From positions 1-64,000 of the forward strand of contig NZ_RYFD01000007.1 of assembly GCF_004138135.1 (NCBI RefSeq): 64,000 nt of DNA, written 5' to 3'. Below the pieces are notes generated by a model. The model saw only the letters and a list, made by a program, of their open reading frames with translations. It made no database searches and was not told the origin of the DNA. Source of the DNA: Candidatus Oscillochloris fontis (GTDB lineage: Bacteria; Chloroflexota; Chloroflexia; Chloroflexales; Chloroflexaceae). Position 1 is the first letter of the stretch, and every line of letters begins with the position of its first letter. The translations under genes and the position numbers were made by a program. Positions 4,600 to 49,069 of this stretch are shown piece by piece.

Positions 4600-4745
4600 T
4601 CGCGACGAAGCCCCGGTTTTTGACCGCAAAGGACGCAGAGGAACGCAGAGGAAGAACCACAGGTTGTAGGTAGCCCGACCCCTCTGCGTACCTCTGTGTC
4701 CTCTGCGGTTGATATGGCTTATGCGCTCCTTAACCGAATGCACAA
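4600..4745 (-). repeat. PE-B element downstream of hypE
   Basis: The arms ACCGCAAAGGACGCAGAGG and CCTCTGTGTCCTCTGCGGT form a long inverted repeat. Its right edge carries TAACCGAATGC (4731-4741), the terminal inverted repeat that bounds the copies inside the glycosyltransferase genes at 44530-44697 and 47424-47591. The left terminus is degenerate and merges with a PE-C-like GTAGGGGCGCG stretch at about 4590. Confidence 0.8.
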
Positions 4746-36330: not shown

Positions 36331-36446
36331 GGTGCTCGTTGTTACTTGATGTTGCTTACCCGATTCTGCGCATCATAGCAGCCTGTGGCGTGGTGTGCAA
36401 ATTGGGAGCCTACTGGCGGGGGGAGATTCGCTTCATAGGCGACCCC

Positions 36447-36566
36447 TTGTGCCTCGGTTGTTGACCGCAGAGGACGCCAAGGAACGCAGAGGAAGAACCA
36501 GAGGCCGTAAGCACAAAACCTATCCCTCTGCGCACCTCTGCGGCCTCTGCGGTTGCTATGGCGTAG
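36447..36566 (+). repeat. PE-B element, tandem copy 1
   Basis: It begins TTGTGCCTCGGTTGTTGACC, then arm ACCGCAGAGGACGCC, a loop with AGAGGCCGTAAGC, and arm CTCTGCGGCCTCTGCGGT. The same unit starts again 149 bases later at 36596. The 36331-36792 gap consists largely of these two copies. Confidence 0.8.
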
Positions 36567-36595
36567 ACGTATGGGGCTTCGTCATGACGCGCTCT

Positions 36596-36711
36596 TTGTG
36601 CCTCGGTTGTTGACCGCAGAGGACGCCAAGGAACGCAGAGGAAGAACCAGAGGCCGTACCCACAGGGAGCACAAAACCTATCCCTCTGCGTACCTCTGCG
36701 GTTGCTATGGT
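36596..36711 (+). repeat. PE-B element, tandem copy 2
   Basis: It is nearly identical to copy 1 over the left arm and loop (with an insertion ACCCACAGGGAGC) and has a shortened right arm. The spacer from 36567 to 36595 contains CGTAGACGTATGGGGCTTCG. No terminal TAACCGAATGC is preserved in either copy. Confidence 0.78.
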
Positions 36712-41808: not shown

Positions 41809-44124
41809 TTGCGTCGCCTACAGCATCCGCTTGTTGCCCCACTCGTCCTCTTCGGGTTCGCCCTCGCGCTACGCCTCTACCACCTGGATGCACAGAGCCT
41901 CTGGTTGGATGAGGGCAGTAGCTGGCAGGTGGCCAATCTGCCGTGGGCCGATCTGCTGCGCGATCTGGTGAGTCCCTCGGCGGCCTACCCGCTCTACCAC
42001 CTGCTGCTGAAGCTCTGGATCATGCTGGCCGGGGATAGTGAGGCGATGTTGCGCCTACCCTCAGCGCTGGCCGGGGCGGCAGCGGTGCCGGTGATCTACT
42101 TGGCGGGACGGGTAGGGAACCCGCATGCGCGGCTGGCGCCCCTGGCGTCCGCACTGATCGCTATGGTTGGCCCCTTCCCGCTCTGGTATGCGCAAGAGGC
42201 CAAGGCGTATAGTCTGTTGTTGCTGGCGGCGGCGCTGCTCGTCTGGGCGGGGATGCGGGCGCTGCACCCTCCTAGCCTCCAGGTTTTAACGCAAAGACGC
42301 GAAGGCGCAGAGCCGGCAACAAAACCTTGCATGGCTTCGACAAGCATGGCTTCGACAAGCTCAGCCACCGCCACCGCGCCGCTGGCTGAGCTTGTCGAAG
42401 CCATGCGGCGCATCCCAGAACTTCTTCGCGCTAACAAACCTTCGCGCCTTCGCGCCTTTGCGTCAATACGAGGTTTCTTTACATATGAATCTAACTGGCG
42501 CAGCTTTGCCCTGATCGCGCTAGTGGCGCTGAGCATCCACCGCCTCGCAGCGTTGGTGGTGTTGGCCATCGGCTGGGCGTGGGTGGTGCAACGCAGGCCG
42601 GGGTGGAAGATCGGGGTGATCGGGATGAGTCTGGCCAGTGCGGGGTTGGTGGGGGTGATGGCACTCGGACTCGGCAGTGACCGCGCCGCTACCGGAGCCT
42701 ACATCCCCGCTGGGCCGCTCGATGCGCTCTGGCTCACGTTTACCCGCTTTAGCCTCGACCGTTGGCCGGGGGATGCCGCCTGGTGGTGGCTGTTGCCGTG
42801 GGGGCTGCTCTTCATCTGGGGGATGCTGGGGCTGGTGCGGGATCTGCGCCGCCCCCTCGCGCAGACGTGGCTCTGTCTGCTGCTCGTGCCGCTCGTTCTC
42901 TTCGGTCTGCAATTGCTCTTCACGCGGCTCTATGAGGCGCGCTACCTGATCGTGGTCTATCCGATCTGGGTGTTGGTGTTGGGGTATCCGTTAAGGAGGG
43001 TATCATCCTCGGTAGTACGCCATAGCAACCGCAGAGGAGACAGAGGTACGCAGAGGGATAGGTTTCATGCTACCTCTGGTTCTTCCTCTGCGTTCCTCTG
43101 CGTCCTCTGCGGTCAACAACCGGAGCGCAAGAGAATGCCAATAGGGATCATCCCCCACCTGGCCCCAGCCATCCTACTTCTCCTCGCGCTCGCCACCAGC
43201 ACCTCGGCGCTGCTCACGCCGCCCTTCGGCCTCTTTTCGGGGGCGGCGGTGAAGGAGCAGTACCGCGAGGCCATCCGCGAGTTAGCGCTGCGGGTGCATC
43301 CCGATGATGCGGTGGTGGTGCATCCCTCCTACATCCGCCCGCTCTACGACTACTATATGCGGCAGATGAGTACCGATCCGGCTCCAACCCCACTCGTCTT
43401 TGCCGATTTCTGGCAGGGCGAAACCGCCTACGGCCAGCGCGAGTGGGACATCGAACGGCGCGCCAATCTGGCCGGGTATAGCCGCAGCTTCCTGCTGATT
43501 GCGCCCGACCATGCGCGCACGGTGGATGCGCCCGCACCGGGCGATGAGTATGGGCTGGTGGGTAACTTCTGGGCCTTCAGTCGCGAGCAGCGCACATGGC
43601 CATGTGGAATCTGGCGCTACCACGGGGTACATCTCTTCTGCCAGGAGGCTCCCGAAACCTACATCACCGGCGAGCGCATCAGTCCGGCCACCCCGGTTGG
43701 TGTCACCTTCGCACAGCAACTTATCTTCCAAGGCTTTACCCTGAAGGCATGGCAAACCGATCCGCCGGGGGTCTATCGCGCCGGGGGCAACCTGCCGATC
43801 AGCCTCTTCTGGGACGTAACCAGCCAACCGAGTGAGGATTTCAGCTTCTTTCTGCACCTGTGCCAGGATTGTAGCGCCCCACCGGTGGCCGGAGATGATG
43901 GCCAACCGCTCGCGGGCTACCTGCCCACCAGTACGTGGCTACCCGGCAAGCCCGCCCGCGATGATCGCACGATTGCGCTGCCCGCCGATCTCCCCGCTGG
44001 ACGCTACACCCTGCTCTTGGGGATCTATCGCCCCAGCAACCCAGCCCCGGATGCACGCTTGCAGGTCGAGGGCGGTATGGAGGATGGGCGATTCGTGTTG
44101 GGGAGTGTGGAGATTATTCGGTGA
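41809..44124 (+). CDS. GT-C type membrane glycosyltransferase 2, with two in-frame palindromes
   Basis: A 771-residue protein. The core resembles GT39 (LRLYHLDAQSLWLDEGSS in the first loop, SALAGAAAVPVIYLAGRV). It has about ten to twelve membrane helices and a ~200-residue C-terminal soluble region. Two non-native segments interrupt it: a ~70-residue PE-A insert (bases ~42270-42483) with another palindrome nested in its loop, and a ~50-residue PE-B insert (~42986-43138, SSSVVRHSNRRGDRGTQRD). Both keep the frame. The start is TTG 41809 after GAGG. Confidence 0.72.
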   Translation: MRRLQHPLVAPLVLFGFALALRLYHLDAQSLWLDEGSSWQVANLPWADLLRDLVSPSAAYPLYHLLLKLWIMLAGDSEAMLRLPSALAGAAAVPVIYLAGRVGNPHARLAPLASALIAMVGPFPLWYAQEAKAYSLLLLAAALLVWAGMRALHPPSLQVLTQRREGAEPATKPCMASTSMASTSSATATAPLAELVEAMRRIPELLRANKPSRLRAFASIRGFFTYESNWRSFALIALVALSIHRLAALVVLAIGWAWVVQRRPGWKIGVIGMSLASAGLVGVMALGLGSDRAATGAYIPAGPLDALWLTFTRFSLDRWPGDAAWWWLLPWGLLFIWGMLGLVRDLRRPLAQTWLCLLLVPLVLFGLQLLFTRLYEARYLIVVYPIWVLVLGYPLRRVSSSVVRHSNRRGDRGTQRDRFHATSGSSSAFLCVLCGQQPERKRMPIGIIPHLAPAILLLLALATSTSALLTPPFGLFSGAAVKEQYREAIRELALRVHPDDAVVVHPSYIRPLYDYYMRQMSTDPAPTPLVFADFWQGETAYGQREWDIERRANLAGYSRSFLLIAPDHARTVDAPAPGDEYGLVGNFWAFSREQRTWPCGIWRYHGVHLFCQEAPETYITGERISPATPVGVTFAQQLIFQGFTLKAWQTDPPGVYRAGGNLPISLFWDVTSQPSEDFSFFLHLCQDCSAPPVAGDDGQPLAGYLPTSTWLPGKPARDDRTIALPADLPAGRYTLLLGIYRPSNPAPDARLQVEGGMEDGRFVLGSVEIIR
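42270..42483 (+). repeat. PE-A inside GT-C2 with a nested palindrome
   Basis: The PE-A head CCTCCTAGCCTCCAGGTTTT and its arm ACGCAAAGACGCGAAGGCGC are matched by CCTTCGCGCCTTCGCGCC and CTTTGCGTCAATACGAGG at the far end. The loop contains a perfect 19-bp inverted repeat GGCTTCGACAAGCTCAGCC (42348-42366, complement 42384-42402), a repeat type known from many bacterial genomes. All is translated without a stop. Confidence 0.8.
42986..43138 (+). repeat. PE-B inside GT-C2
   Basis: The arms CAACCGCAGAGGAGACAGAGG and its mate CCTCTGCGTCCTCTGCGG flank GGTTTCATGCTACC. The left boundary reads CCGTTAAGGAGGGTATCATC. The terminal TAACCGAATGC is lost and only AATGCC remains. The copy is eroded, shorter than the 44523 and 47416 copies and has no clear flanking direct repeat, yet is still in frame. 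Confidence 0.75.
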
Positions 44125-44139
44125 AACCAGGATGATTGA

Positions 44140-44185
44140 TTTCACGCAAAGGCGCAGAGACGCAAAGATTCTTTGTGTTCTTTTG
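44140..44185 (+). repeat. PE-A fragment before GT-C3
   Basis: TTTCACGCAAAGGCGCAGAG and ACGCAAAGATTC is one arm of PE-A with no opposing arm. It lies between GT-C2 and the chosen start of GT-C3 and explains a spurious upstream extension of that gene. Confidence 0.55.
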
Positions 44186-44201
44186 CAACCACGAACCAGA
44201 C

Positions 44202-46769
44202 ATGACAGATTCTAAACCCCACAAACTCCTCTGGGTTGCTCTACTGCTCGGCCTAGGGCTACGCCTAGCCCTGTGGGGTCAATTGCCGCGCCTGGGGCTG
44301 ATCGGCGATGAGGCCGAGTACCTCGCCGCCGCTGATTGGCTGGCCCACGGGCGCGGCTTTGCGTGGCACCTGCACTACCTGTGGACACGCGCGCCACTCT
44401 ACCCGCTCTTCCTGGCGGCGCACCTCGCGCTCTTTGGCAACTCGCTCACCCCGATCTTCCTCAGTCAGATTGGGTTGAGCCTGCTCAATATCGGGCTGAT
44501 CTATGCCCTGGGGCGGCTGGTTCTCATACGCATTCGGTTAAGGAGGGTATCTTCCTCGGTAGTACGCCATAGCAACCGCAGAGGATACAGAGGTACGCAG
44601 AGGGATGGGTTTCGCGCTACCTGTGGTTCTCCCTCTGCGTTCCTCTGCGTCCTCTGCGGTCAAAAACCGGGGCACAAGAGGATGCGTAACCGAATGCCAA
44701 TGCGGCTGGTTCTCCCCACCAACGCCCAGCGCTATGCTCCCGGCAGCGCCGCGATCCTCGGCGCGATCTACCTGCCCTTCGCCACCTATCCGCAACTCAT
44801 CCTCAGTGAAACCCTCTTCACCAGCCTTTTGCTGGGCAGCCTCGTGGCGCTGGCGCGCTGGGCGGACATTCATGGTTTAACGCAAAGACGCAAAGACGCA
44901 AAGCCTGCAACAAAACCTTTGCGTCTTCGCGCCTTTGCGTCAATAGAGCGTGACACCTGGTTAATCATCGCGGGGCTACTCCTCGGTCTAGCCACGCTCA
45001 CCCGTGGCCTCACCTTGGGCTTCGTGCCACTGGTGCTGATCTGGGTTGGGCTACAGGCCAAGCGCCAGTGGCTCAGTGCGGTGGCGATCTTGGGCGTTAC
45101 CTTCACCCTCATCCTGGCTCCGTGGAGCCTCTACGCCAGCCGCACCTACGGCGGTATGGTGCTGGTGGACACCACTGGCGCGTTCAACCTGGCGCTGGGG
45201 GCGCGTACCGCTTATGATGGCGGGCGCAGTGATGCGCCGCTGCGTAACTTCATCTTGGCGCTGCTCGAACCGACATTGAGCCAGGAGCAGCGCACCGCGC
45301 TGGTTGCCGATCAGCGCAACGGGGCGTGTCTCTACGCGGCGGGCGATGCGCGGCTGTTGGCGGCGCTGGAAAGCCCAGTAGACCAGATCACCCAGGCTGA
45401 GCGCCAAGCCCTGCTGAATGCCGAGGCGTTCTGTCTGCTGCGCCAAGCCCCGTTGGCCTTCGTACAGAAGAGCCTGATCGAACTGGCCGACCTCTTTCAG
45501 ATCAACTATACCGGCGACGAGCGGCTGAGTAAGGGCTTTGCACTGGGTCGCCTGCCGCCTTGGTACAGTCTGGCCCTCTTTCTGCTCGATGACACGCTCT
45601 ATGTGCTCAGCCTGCCGCTGGCGGTGCTGGGCTGGGGCTGGCTGCGCCGCCAAGCCCCCCAGCAGACCGCGATCACCCTGGTTGGCCTGTGGCTGCTCTA
45701 CAACCTCGCTACCGCGCCGCTGCTCTTTGCGATCAACCGTTTTCGCGTCCCGCTCATGCCGCTGGTGGTGTTGCTGGCCGCCTACGCCCTAACCACGCTC
45801 TTCAGCCGGGTGCGCCGTGTACCGTCGGGCTACACCCGCGCCTGTGCTGCCCTCGCCCTCCTGCTGGGCCTGATCGCCACCGCGCCCTACGCCTACCTCG
45901 AACCCCGCGCAGCGGACGCGGCCTCGCGTTGGGCCTCGTACCTGGGGCCATACCCATCGAGCCTGGAGAATACGCGCATCGCCCTGCGCACCCGCCCCGC
46001 CTACCTGGCCGAGCAGCGGCTAGCCAGCGCGTTGGGCAGCGGCGATGTGGTAGCGGCTGCGGCAGCCCTGAATGACCCCGCCCTCCCGGCGTATGCGGTG
46101 GGTGTGGGCGCACCGTTGCTGGCCGGGTTGCAGGGCGATCCGGCTGGCGGGATGGATCGGCTGGCGCAGGGGCCAGAGCAGCCCTTAGAGGGTTGGCAGC
46201 GCAGCCTGATCGCGGGTCAACTCTTCCGCCAGATGGGCGACTTAGAGGCGGCGCGGCGCGAGTTTGGCCCAGCCCATGTGGATGACCAGAACCCGGTGGC
46301 GTGGGCATGGCAGTGGCTCGCCCCGCCCCCCACTAACCGCATTGATCTGGCCAGCGATAACGATCTGGGCTATATCCACGGCTTCTACCTGGGGCGCTAC
46401 GATCCCGACCTGGATGCCACTGTGCGTTGGGCGAGTGGCGACGCCGCGCTGCGCTTCCCCCGCGCTGCCAGCGGGCAACCCCAGCAACTCTGTCTGAGCA
46501 TCAGCGGCCTGGGTTGGCCCAGCGACATGGCGCTGCCCAGCGTGCAGGTTCGGGTTGGAACGACCAGCCTGGGCCAGATCGCGCTCAGCCGCGAGCTACG
46601 GAGCGAATGTCTGGCGCTGCCCGCCCAACCCGCCGGGAGTGACCTGATCGTCACGCTACACGCGGCCACCTTCGTCCCCGATGCGCTCGATCTGGTGCGC
46701 CAACAGGGGCCGCAGGTGGGTCAGTTGCGGCGTTTGGCCTACCAGTTAGACTGGGCGGAGGTGCGTTAG
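44202..46769 (+). CDS. GT-C type membrane glycosyltransferase 3, with in-frame PE-B and PE-A
   Basis: An 855-residue protein. The first loop after helix 1 holds the GT39-like acidic motif (GLIGDEAEYLAAADWLAHGRGF). About a dozen membrane helices are followed by a ~300-residue soluble C-terminus. PE-B (44523-44701) interrupts IYALGRLVL and PE-A (~44870-44950) interrupts a later loop (IHGLTQRRKDAKPATKPLRL). Deleting the PE-B unit reads RLVLPTNAQRYAPG with no other change. ATG 44202 is preferred to TTG 44136 because the latter translates a PE-A fragment. Confidence 0.74.
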   Translation: MTDSKPHKLLWVALLLGLGLRLALWGQLPRLGLIGDEAEYLAAADWLAHGRGFAWHLHYLWTRAPLYPLFLAAHLALFGNSLTPIFLSQIGLSLLNIGLIYALGRLVLIRIRLRRVSSSVVRHSNRRGYRGTQRDGFRATCGSPSAFLCVLCGQKPGHKRMRNRMPMRLVLPTNAQRYAPGSAAILGAIYLPFATYPQLILSETLFTSLLLGSLVALARWADIHGLTQRRKDAKPATKPLRLRAFASIERDTWLIIAGLLLGLATLTRGLTLGFVPLVLIWVGLQAKRQWLSAVAILGVTFTLILAPWSLYASRTYGGMVLVDTTGAFNLALGARTAYDGGRSDAPLRNFILALLEPTLSQEQRTALVADQRNGACLYAAGDARLLAALESPVDQITQAERQALLNAEAFCLLRQAPLAFVQKSLIELADLFQINYTGDERLSKGFALGRLPPWYSLALFLLDDTLYVLSLPLAVLGWGWLRRQAPQQTAITLVGLWLLYNLATAPLLFAINRFRVPLMPLVVLLAAYALTTLFSRVRRVPSGYTRACAALALLLGLIATAPYAYLEPRAADAASRWASYLGPYPSSLENTRIALRTRPAYLAEQRLASALGSGDVVAAAAALNDPALPAYAVGVGAPLLAGLQGDPAGGMDRLAQGPEQPLEGWQRSLIAGQLFRQMGDLEAARREFGPAHVDDQNPVAWAWQWLAPPPTNRIDLASDNDLGYIHGFYLGRYDPDLDATVRWASGDAALRFPRAASGQPQQLCLSISGLGWPSDMALPSVQVRVGTTSLGQIALSRELRSECLALPAQPAGSDLIVTLHAATFVPDALDLVRQQGPQVGQLRRLAYQLDWAEVR
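44523..44701 (+). repeat. PE-B inside GT-C3, flanked by a direct repeat
   Basis: GCATTCGGTTA (44530-44540) and its exact complement TAACCGAATGC (44687-44697) bound a 168-bp unit with the long CCGCAGAGG/CCTCTGCGG hairpin. GCGGCTGGTT occurs immediately on both sides (44513-44522 and 44702-44711); the copies stay identical three bases further (CTC). The repeat-to-repeat distance is 189 bp, a multiple of three. Confidence 0.88.
44870..44950 (+). repeat. PE-A inside GT-C3
   Basis: TTTAACGCAAAGACGCAAAG and CTTTGCGTCTTCGCGCC with CTTTGCGTCAATAGAG form the PE-A hairpin. It lacks the GTGTGAAC termini, so the boundaries are approximate. The translated segment is polar and basic, unlike the surrounding membrane protein. 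Confidence 0.72.
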
Positions 46770-49069
46770 TGGCAAGATCACACAAAACATGGCCGCTCCT
46801 GGTGATCATCCTGCTCGGCCTGGGGCTGCGCCTGCTCGCGTGGCACTGGCGCGAGTTCTACCCGCTGGGCGGCGACGAACACGAGTATCTGGATCAGGCC
46901 ATTCGGCTGCTACGCGACCATGAATATGTCGAGTTGCGGCTGATGCGTCCGCCACTCTACCCGCTCTTCCTGGCCGGATGGATCTACCTGATCGACTCGC
47001 TCGTCCAGAACCTGCGCCTCGTCCAAGCAATCATCAGTGCCGCGACCATCCCGTTGGTCTACCTGCTCACCCACGAAGTTGCGCAACAGAACGGCCACGC
47101 CCCGCGCCGCCCGGCACTGATCGCGGCGCTGCTGACTGCGCTCAGCTACACGCTGGCCGCCAACGCCACCGAGTTGCTCACCGAGGCACTCTTTCTCTTT
47201 GGGCTAAGCGCAGTCTTCTGGTTGGTGCTGCGCGCCGCCCGCACCGGCAGCGCCCGCCTCGCCGGGGCCGCCGGGCTAATCATCGGGGCGCTCTGTCTGG
47301 TGCGTTCGGTAGCGTTGCCGCTCCTGCCGCTCGGCACAGTCTGGTTGGTTTTGGCGGCGCTGAATCCCCCCCTCTCCCGCGTGCGGGAGAGGGGGGCTAG
47401 GGGGGTGAGGGCCATCCTCATACGCATTCGGTTAAGGAAGGTATCATCCTCGGTAGTACGCCCTATCAACCGCAGAGGATACAGAGGTACGCAGAGGGAT
47501 GGGTTTCGCGCTCCTTGTGGTTCTTCCTCTGCGTTCCTCTGCGTCCTCTGCGGTCAAAAACCGGGGCACAAGAGGATGTGTAACCGAATGCCTATGAGGG
47601 CCATGACTCCCGCCCTCACCCTGGCCCTCGCCTGCTGTCTGGTACTTCTTCCTTGGAGCACCCGCAACTACCTGACCTACGGCGGCCTCATCCTGATTGA
47701 CACCACCGGGGCCGAAAACCTGTGGCTCGATAACGATCCGGCTGGGCGCGAGGCGGTCAAGGCGCAGCTCTACGCCATGGGCGAAGACCGACTGGCGCGG
47801 CAACAGATCGCAACCCAACGCGGCATGGCGGTCATTCAGGCCGATCCGGGGCGCTTCCTACACAAAGCCGGGGGCGAACTGAAGAAACTCTTTGCCCTGG
47901 AGTTCAGCGACGACATGCTGGCCCGTCCGGCGATCTGGATACGCCCGGCGGAGGTCTGGGCACGCCTAGTGTTGGGCGATGGCCTCTGGTTGCTTATTCT
48001 GCTCGCCGGGGTGATCGGCATGGGCCAACACACAGCCCAAGGCGAGAAACCGCGTTCAGTGTGGGCATGGTTCCTACACACCTTTAGCCAACCGCGCTGG
48101 CTGCTGCTACCCTGGGTACTCTATGTCACCCTCACCACCCTGATCTTCCATGTCGAACTACGCTACCGCCTACCACTCTACCCGGCGCTGCTCGCCTACA
48201 GTGGGCTAATGCTGACCAGCCGCCAACGCCCGGCTTGGCCGGGGCTACTCGCCGCACTCTTCTGCCTCAGCATCACGCTCCTGCACGCCAACTACCCCGC
48301 ACTGGCGTGGCAACTGGCCAACAAACACTTCCACCTCGCCCGTGCCGAAGCCGCGCTGAGCCGGGGTGACGCAGATTCCGCCGAACGCGCCACTGAGGCT
48401 GCGTTGGAATGGGACAGCGACTCGGCACTGGCGCAGGTCGCCCTGGCCCGTGCCGCGCTTGCACGCGGGGAGAACCAAACCGCCCTGGCGTACCTTAACG
48501 CCGCGATCAAGTTGCTACCCGCGCACCCCTACGCGCACCTACTACGCGGCGATCTGCTGCGCCTTCAGGGTGAGACCAAGGCCGCCCGGCAGGATCTTGA
48601 TTACGAGAGTAGTGCCTTAGAAGATCTGCAAACCTGGGCATGGGAACGGATGATCAGCCCACCACCCAGCGAACTTAACCTCGGCGATGGGCTAGATCTG
48701 GGCTTTATCCGTGGATTTCACCAACTCGCCACCGAGGAGACGGGCTTCCGTTGGAGCCAAGGCACGGCCTACGTGCGCCTACACGCGGCTGCCGGTGCCC
48801 AGCAGATCCAGATCCGAGCCGCCTCAGGCCGCCCGGATGGCAGCAGAACCCCACTGTGGGTCAGACTGAATGGCCAAGTGGTGGGCACAATAATGCTCAG
48901 TGCGGAGGGCGACACTTACCGCCTGAATCTACCCCAACCGATCAGCAACCCCGGCGAAGTGGTCATCATGCTGGAGTCGCACACCTTCCACCCCCGCGAC
49001 TATGATCGCGCCAGTGGTGATGGGCGCAGGCTAGGGGTGCAGATTGCTACGGTGATCCTCCATCCATAG
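46769..49069 (+). CDS. GT-C type membrane glycosyltransferase 4, with in-frame PE-G and PE-B
   Basis: A 766-residue protein. The first loop has the GT39-like acidic motif (YPLGGDEHEYLDQAIRLL). A multi-helix core is followed by TPR-like helices (LARAEAALSRGDADSAERA, LARAALARGENQTALAYL) and a beta-rich C-terminal domain. Two palindromes lie side by side at ~47366-47604: PE-G, translated as NPPLSRVRERGARG, and PE-B, translated as SSSVVRPINRRGYRGTQRD. GTG 46769 overlaps the previous stop by one base, so the two genes are coupled. Confidence 0.74.
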   Translation: MARSHKTWPLLVIILLGLGLRLLAWHWREFYPLGGDEHEYLDQAIRLLRDHEYVELRLMRPPLYPLFLAGWIYLIDSLVQNLRLVQAIISAATIPLVYLLTHEVAQQNGHAPRRPALIAALLTALSYTLAANATELLTEALFLFGLSAVFWLVLRAARTGSARLAGAAGLIIGALCLVRSVALPLLPLGTVWLVLAALNPPLSRVRERGARGVRAILIRIRLRKVSSSVVRPINRRGYRGTQRDGFRAPCGSSSAFLCVLCGQKPGHKRMCNRMPMRAMTPALTLALACCLVLLPWSTRNYLTYGGLILIDTTGAENLWLDNDPAGREAVKAQLYAMGEDRLARQQIATQRGMAVIQADPGRFLHKAGGELKKLFALEFSDDMLARPAIWIRPAEVWARLVLGDGLWLLILLAGVIGMGQHTAQGEKPRSVWAWFLHTFSQPRWLLLPWVLYVTLTTLIFHVELRYRLPLYPALLAYSGLMLTSRQRPAWPGLLAALFCLSITLLHANYPALAWQLANKHFHLARAEAALSRGDADSAERATEAALEWDSDSALAQVALARAALARGENQTALAYLNAAIKLLPAHPYAHLLRGDLLRLQGETKAARQDLDYESSALEDLQTWAWERMISPPPSELNLGDGLDLGFIRGFHQLATEETGFRWSQGTAYVRLHAAAGAQQIQIRAASGRPDGSRTPLWVRLNGQVVGTIMLSAEGDTYRLNLPQPISNPGEVVIMLESHTFHPRDYDRASGDGRRLGVQIATVILHP
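47366..47409 (+). repeat. PE-G palindrome inside GT-C4
   Basis: CCCCCCTCTCCCGC (47367-47380) and GCGGGAGAGGGGGG (47383-47396) form a 14-bp stem with a tiny loop, followed by GCTAGGGGGGTGAGGG. This CCCCTCTCCC repeat type is widespread in bacterial genomes. It is in frame and abuts the left direct repeat of PE-B. Confidence 0.8.
47416..47594 (+). repeat. PE-B inside GT-C4, flanked by a direct repeat
   Basis: GCATTCGGTTA (47424-47434) and TAACCGAATGC (47581-47591) bound a 168-bp unit, exactly the length of the GT-C3 copy. TGAGGGCCAT flanks it at 47406-47415 and 47595-47604, 189 bp apart. The nucleotide sequence is about 90 percent alike to the GT-C3 copy by eye. Confidence 0.88.

Follow-up and report, generated by a model that had tools for sequence, protein, structure and literature searches.

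PE-B, a MITE-like palindromic element with in-frame copies in membrane glycosyltransferase genes of Candidatus Oscillochloris fontis

Three consecutive membrane glycosyltransferase genes (GT-C2, GT-C3 and GT-C4) of Candidatus Oscillochloris fontis, a filamentous phototrophic chloroflexote, each contain one copy of a palindromic element, PE-B. They lie in the window, by which we mean the whole stretch of 64,000 nucleotides that was analysed, and all three copies reported in an earlier note on this DNA were recovered. By its anatomy, PE-B is a MITE-like element: it has inverted ends, duplicates its target, is short and multicopy and carries no transposase. We consider it probable that PE-B is an IS4-like non-autonomous MITE, which is moved in trans, whose insertions pass through selection and which variable loops of GT-C enzymes can tolerate. 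The assembly searched was a 139-contig draft of 4.46 Mb. The features of the window are as follows:

41809-44124, plus strand: GT-C2 gene, PMT_2-like membrane glycosyltransferase, 771 aa
42986-43138, plus strand: PE-B in GT-C2, both termini degraded, direct repeat absent
44202-46769, plus strand: GT-C3 gene, ATG at 44202, 855 aa, GT-C fold by prediction
44513-44525, plus strand: left target-site duplication of the GT-C3 copy, GCGGCTGGTTCTC
44526-44701, plus strand: PE-B in GT-C3, 176 bp, 15-bp imperfect terminal inverted repeats
44575-44660, plus strand: internal hairpin of PE-B in GT-C3, 31-nt arms and 24-nt loop
44702-44714, plus strand: right target-site duplication of the GT-C3 copy, GCGGCTGGTTCTC
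46769-49069, plus strand: GT-C4 gene, PMT_2 plus TPR, 766 aa
47407-47419, plus strand: left target repeat of the GT-C4 copy, GAGGGCCATCCTC
47420-47595, plus strand: PE-B in GT-C4, 176 bp
47596-47608, plus strand: right target repeat of the GT-C4 copy, GAGGGCCATGACT, 9/13 identical to the left one
4610-4741, minus strand: PE-B copy between genes, one terminus recognisable
36443-36710, minus strand: two copies of the PE-B core between genes, termini not recognisable

Ends, hairpin and target-site duplications

The copies in GT-C3 and GT-C4 had been described as 168-bp units with perfect 11-bp termini. These termini (GCATTCGGTTA/TAACCGAATGC) are indeed exact in both genes, and the units (44530-44697 and 47424-47591) share 95% identity over 168 bp, but the true element is longer. 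Setting the boundaries by comparison of end-bounded copies across the genome resulted in a unit of 176 bp with imperfect 15-bp ends (ATACGCATTCGGTTA ... TAACCGAATGCCAAT). The end-degraded copy in GT-C2 (about 42986-43138) retains 92% identity over 152 bp. With up to one mismatch allowed, the 11-bp terminus word matched five times in the window against 0.78 expected, a number reached in none of 100 shuffles.

Terminal inverted repeats, made up of ATWGGCRTTCGGTTA and, on the opposite side, its imperfect complement, were found at 13-14 end-bounded copies. Ends of the ATWGGCRTTCGGTTA type also enclose other internal REP-like palindromes (GTAGGGGCGCGTC..., GAAGGTAGCACCGGCTTCC...; loci L105 1776-1988, L106 1897-2077 and L108 1872-2082). 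As the same ends surround different insides, it is the ends and not the GCAGAGG hairpin that define the mobile unit.

Folded as RNA, the PE-B hairpin is very stable, with -55 to -60 kcal/mol and z-scores of -7.8 to -9.3 across copies (GT-C3: -59.7 kcal/mol, z -9.3). Such stability would fit a hairpin that influences how the glycosyltransferase operon is transcribed or translated, with the coding frame as a by-product. However, the majority of copies lie outside these operons, PMT_2-type genes elsewhere in the genome also carry PE-B, and fixed arm mismatches recur across copies, as expected from common descent and not from selection on pairing. We regard a regulatory hairpin as quite improbable. 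As a separate observation, the GCAGAGG hairpin core also occurs in head-to-tail arrays without PE-B ends (L041, L043, L045), some of them at contig ends.

The element is flanked by direct repeats, which the earlier note had given as 10 bp long and different in each gene. The repeat of the GT-C3 copy is perfect over 13 bp (GCGGCTGGTTCTC), whereas the flanks of the GT-C4 copy agree at only 9 of 13 positions. The reported repeat-to-repeat distance of 189 bp (63 codons) holds for both genes (176+13=189). A comparison of the flanks revealed no direct repeat at the GT-C2 copy, whose termini are missing. A lack of direct repeats at other copies had been named as evidence against mobility; instead, duplications of 12-13 bp occur at further copies. 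They are perfect over 13 bp at four copies (GT-C3, L016, L026 and L105) and match at 9-11 of 12-13 positions at the others. Among 13 end-bounded copies, the two 13-bp flanks of the same copy agree at 9.1/13 positions on average compared to 6.3 between copies, and perfect 13-mers were found in four own-flank pairs but in none of 156 cross-comparisons. The copies in GT-C2 and in the DUF2298 protein described below are without duplication, so for these two we infer transposition.

Self-complementarity is unusually high in the left 13-bp flanks (47 of 78 possible pairs versus 26.9 in shuffles) and less clear in the right ones (32 versus 25.2), and the left flanks in particular suggest that PE-B prefers palindromic targets. 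This preference, together with the hairpin structure and the high copy number, would also be in agreement with REP/RAYT-type palindromes mobilised by an IS200/IS605-related TnpA_REP. Target duplications of 12-13 bp and long inverted ends are, however, not expected from single-strand transposition of the IS200/IS605 type, and there is very little probability that PE-B belongs to this class.

Genic copies, empty sites and reading frame

A genome search with the 168-bp query yielded at least 40 matching places, and a copy table was built from such searches plus fetched loci. Five copies are located deep inside long ORFs and are spread over three contigs: those in GT-C2, GT-C3 and GT-C4, one at C132:33329 (2774 aa) and one at C92:61994 (943 aa). 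No end-bounded copy was seen breaking a gene. The others occupy intergenic positions or the borders of genes, and those tested at long ORFs are upstream of leuC-like, LLM-like or LuxR/MalT-like starts or at a CHAT-like C-terminal edge (names from our reading of the sequences). For this check the element was removed and, where a long ORF resulted, the position of the gene start was examined. Apparent gene disruptions at L004, L011, L021 and L108 were discarded in this way, the copies sitting upstream of starts or at the C-terminal edge.

As claimed earlier, removal of PE-B together with one repeat from GT-C3 joins GRLVL to PTNAQRY. In orthologues of GT-C2, GT-C3 and GT-C4 from about 20 Chloroflexales genomes (about 36-82% identity, depending on the segment), the insert is missing and the alignment continues across the site. 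Congeners without the insert were found for the C132 and C92 proteins, too. The same 63 residues in distant homologues would have spoken against an insertion, but the orthologues checked are without them. Loop lengths vary among orthologues regardless of PE-B. Taken together, the common inverted ends, the 12-13-bp duplications and the insert-free orthologues back the proposed non-autonomous mobile element. In a metagenome bin, the GT-C3 orthologue (L083 4845-7318) is split over two overlapping frames, reflecting a frameshift or an assembly error.

Three near-identical repeats within 5 kb of a 139-contig draft might also point to short-read contigs misjoined at a repeat. Against such an artefact, both halves around each insert match one orthologue in order and in frame, this holds for five genes on three contigs, and the GT-C3 copy is framed by its perfect 13-bp duplication. 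A misassembly has next to no likelihood.

All five genic copies are in frame and stop-free. Those in GT-C2, GT-C3, GT-C4 and C132 are read in the NRRG..RGTQRD frame, while the C92 copy has the opposite orientation and uses a different frame. End-bounded genic copies add a net 189, 189 and 222 bp, and non-genic copies measure 164-273 bp with lengths mixed modulo 3. Because non-genic lengths occur in any phase, the frame is kept by selection and not by the element. Two properties of the element itself were considered and dismissed: a construction in multiples of three by the mixed lengths modulo 3, and a surplus of open frames by a comparison with shuffles (10 open versus 8.4 expected for 14 copies). 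The NRRG frame is open in 7 of 22 non-genic copies compared to all four genic copies using it. The 176-bp variant is open throughout, and variants with an extra ~11 bp shift into a TAA. PE-B as such is thus not designed for coding: a single common length variant has this capacity, and those copies that do code are retained by selection. The earlier wording that the element "tolerates or selects in-frame insertion" thus holds for tolerance, and for selection only in the sense of purifying selection after insertion, since the lengths of the other copies are phase-free.

One enzyme superfamily as host

All five host proteins are of PMT_2 or GT-C type. The 2774-aa C132 protein contains two DUF2298 stretches plus PMT_2, and the 943-aa C92 protein scored above the PMT_2 cut-off in the genome search. 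We estimate from the listed PMT_2 ORFs that this class makes up ~1.5% of the coding sequence, so that five out of five is far from chance, even with three copies being close kin. In a tree of 29 copies, those of GT-C3, GT-C4 and C132 form one clade (support 100/99) apart from the 24 non-genic copies, indicating that a genic subfamily exists. The left half of the GT-C2 copy shows derived bases that also occur in GT-C3 and GT-C4; the tree puts this copy elsewhere with weak support. Subfamily membership amounts to 4/4 genic copies versus 1/25 of the rest (p = 2e-4, with GT-C2 grouped by our reading of the alignment).

The AlphaFold model of GT-C3 (18 orthologues, mean pLDDT 77.9) matches AglB, Pmt4, STT3 and ArnT outside the insert (Z 21.1-17.5, rmsd 3.5-4.6, ~310-340 residues). 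These matches indicate that GT-C3 is, according to the model, a GT-C enzyme, with a predicted CBM35-like C-terminal domain. For the earlier description of the hosts as surface-glycan enzymes, it is the predicted GT-C fold that suggests this putative role. The basic loop of ~60 residues was confirmed: the GT-C3 insert has 16 K/R versus 1 D/E in 63 residues and is disordered in the model, with residues 128-169 below a pLDDT of 50 between helices 83-120 and 173-194. Across the five enzymes, the predicted products gain a positively charged, floppy loop of ~50-70 residues. Known GT-C topology would place the insert-bearing loop on the cytoplasmic side; the GT-C3 loop is thus probably cytoplasmic, which suits a basic insert.

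PE-B is not the only palindrome in these loops. Three further in-frame elements were found in the window:

42280-42468, plus strand: PE-A in GT-C2, split by a nested REP-like palindrome, GGCTTCGACAAGCTCAGCC, at 42344-42406, all in frame
44871-44945, plus strand: PE-A, second palindrome family, ACGCAAAGACGCAAAG, in frame in GT-C3
47366-47410, plus strand: further palindrome, CCCTCTCCCGCGTGCGGGAGAGGGG, in the GT-C4 loop that holds PE-B, immediately upstream of the element

Besides GT-C2 and GT-C3, PE-A is in frame four times in the C132 protein and once in C92. It encodes the peptide HTSPSLQxLTxRRxxAKPATKPLRLRAFASIRxFxxxKSEQL, matches the genome strongly at more than 40 places and is in frame in several PMT_2/DUF2298 proteins; sites outside the window include L071 5740-11187, L038 1056-1218 and L154.

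The congeners G001, G002 and G005 carry unrelated in-frame palindromes in the same loops (NAKCKMQNAK..FCILTFAFC and KGKRQK..CLFTFTFCL; L065 3382-3468, L066 4668-4886 and L067 4166-4252). In these, one arm codes for a basic stretch and the right arm for the beginning of the hydrophobic helix that follows. The host genome lacks the KGKRQK..CLFTFTFCL palindrome, which is present in multiple copies in G002 and G005. Coding palindromes with arms of at least 24 bp were seen exclusively in GT-C genes within the fetched loci (a run of N in L069 was left out of the count); the loci were chosen around such genes, which makes this count supportive only.

From these observations, we tentatively propose as a possible scenario that Oscillochloris GT-C loops could serve as permanent landing pads, where palindromes particular to each species become coding (as the basic-loop arm and, in congeners, as the next-helix arm), and that the PE-B subfamily may spread from gene to gene within the class. 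A stronger version would be adaptive domestication, i.e. positive selection for a basic loop that alters topology, partner binding or expression of the GT-C enzymes. The confinement of all five genic copies to one superfamily, the supported clade of the GT-C3, GT-C4 and DUF2298 copies with its derived bases in the left half of GT-C2, and the palindromes with a basic arm and a helix-start arm in congeners are in agreement with this idea. On the other hand, the varying loop length of the orthologues is enough for tolerance, and the insert is predicted to be disordered. We consider domestication unlikely and take tolerance as the default reading of the added loops.

Mobility and relation to known elements

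The exact end pattern was found at 23 sites in the host genome compared to 2 in 399 other Chloroflexota genomes. With one mismatch allowed, 0 to 4 sites per relative were detected, and short matches to the hairpin core do exist in relatives. The PE-B ends are therefore essentially confined to the host genome.

The ends of E. coli IS4, as checked on an annotated E. coli IS4 copy, match those of PE-B at 12 of 17 positions (chance about 1e-4). This copy has a 12-bp duplication (CAGAACCAAGAT), and the 12-13-bp duplications of PE-B fall in the range of 10-13-bp direct repeats of the IS4 subgroup (PMC2266710, Table 1). PE-B agrees with the subgroup consensus -AATR--------WTW only in part, with one AAT position differing, and PE-B differs from IS4 in being transposase-free. 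No autonomous IS with PE-B ends was found in the 139-contig draft or, using the exact end pattern, in the 399 other Chloroflexota genomes. None of the four PF01609 hits in the assembly is flanked by PE-B ends, and the ORFs examined at these hits contain no YREK motif. In a fragmented draft, the absence of an autonomous partner is not decisive.

PE-B is a lineage-specific, MITE-like element with ~15-bp inverted ends that duplicates 12-13 bp of its target. According to the reading that we favour, a presumed DDE transposase of the IS4-subgroup type most likely mobilises it in trans. The 176-bp variant, with its frame open end to end, adds exactly 63 codons together with the 13-bp duplication. Gene-breaking insertions would be purged, and survivors would persist in intergenic DNA or, with the frame kept, in those loops of PMT_2/GT-C enzymes that are variable and probably cytoplasmic. 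A basic disordered segment may well be tolerated in such loops; here we infer tolerance rather than benefit.

In-frame insertion of palindromes is already established for Rickettsia palindromic elements (RPEs), intragenic REPs and ERIC. RPEs are palindromes of 100-150 bp that are in frame in ORFs and encode a solvent-exposed peptide, with different RPE groups close together in orthologues (PMC3767692, PMC10969869). The earlier comparison with RPEs holds for the way PE-B works, as in-frame insertion into ORFs is common to both (five genic copies of PE-B), but not for membership. What distinguishes PE-B are its defined inverted ends, its 13-bp duplication, its residence in a free-living phototroph and the restriction of its genic copies to PMT_2/GT-C genes. 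Many RPE insertions are old and sit at identical positions in orthologues; in contrast, none of the orthologues checked here contains PE-B. Intragenic REPs (GTAG/CGTC; Opitutus terrae, Thioalkalivibrio and others) are palindromes within protein genes that are thought to be neutral (PMC3733652). They measure 20-40 bp and occur in varied, unrelated proteins, in contrast to PE-B with its 164-273 bp, target duplications and single enzyme superfamily. ERIC and other MITEs occasionally form in-frame fusions with host genes and have intragenic, ORF-bearing copies (PMC10969869, PMC2759123). They have the MITE anatomy in common with PE-B but differ in sequence and host, and a single superfamily accounts for the five genic copies of PE-B.

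New are the PE-B family itself, its bias towards one superfamily, a clear-ended MITE in a free-living phototroph and the parallels in sister species; a search of the open-access literature yielded no paper describing Chloroflexales repeats of these kinds. PE-B offers a free-living system, with visible duplications and, in close relatives, empty sites, which allows palindrome insertion into proteins to be caught and dated. It also makes testable whether inserts are neutral passengers or new loops for membrane enzymes, and why one enzyme superfamily receives nearly all of them.

As a minor observation, the sequence ATACCCCTCAAGCTAAGAAAACAGCC...CATCATGGAAGTAGGAACAAA is shared by the ends of several contigs (L100 1-70, L047 1-70 and L022 1760-1830) and is probably an insertion sequence that was collapsed in the assembly.
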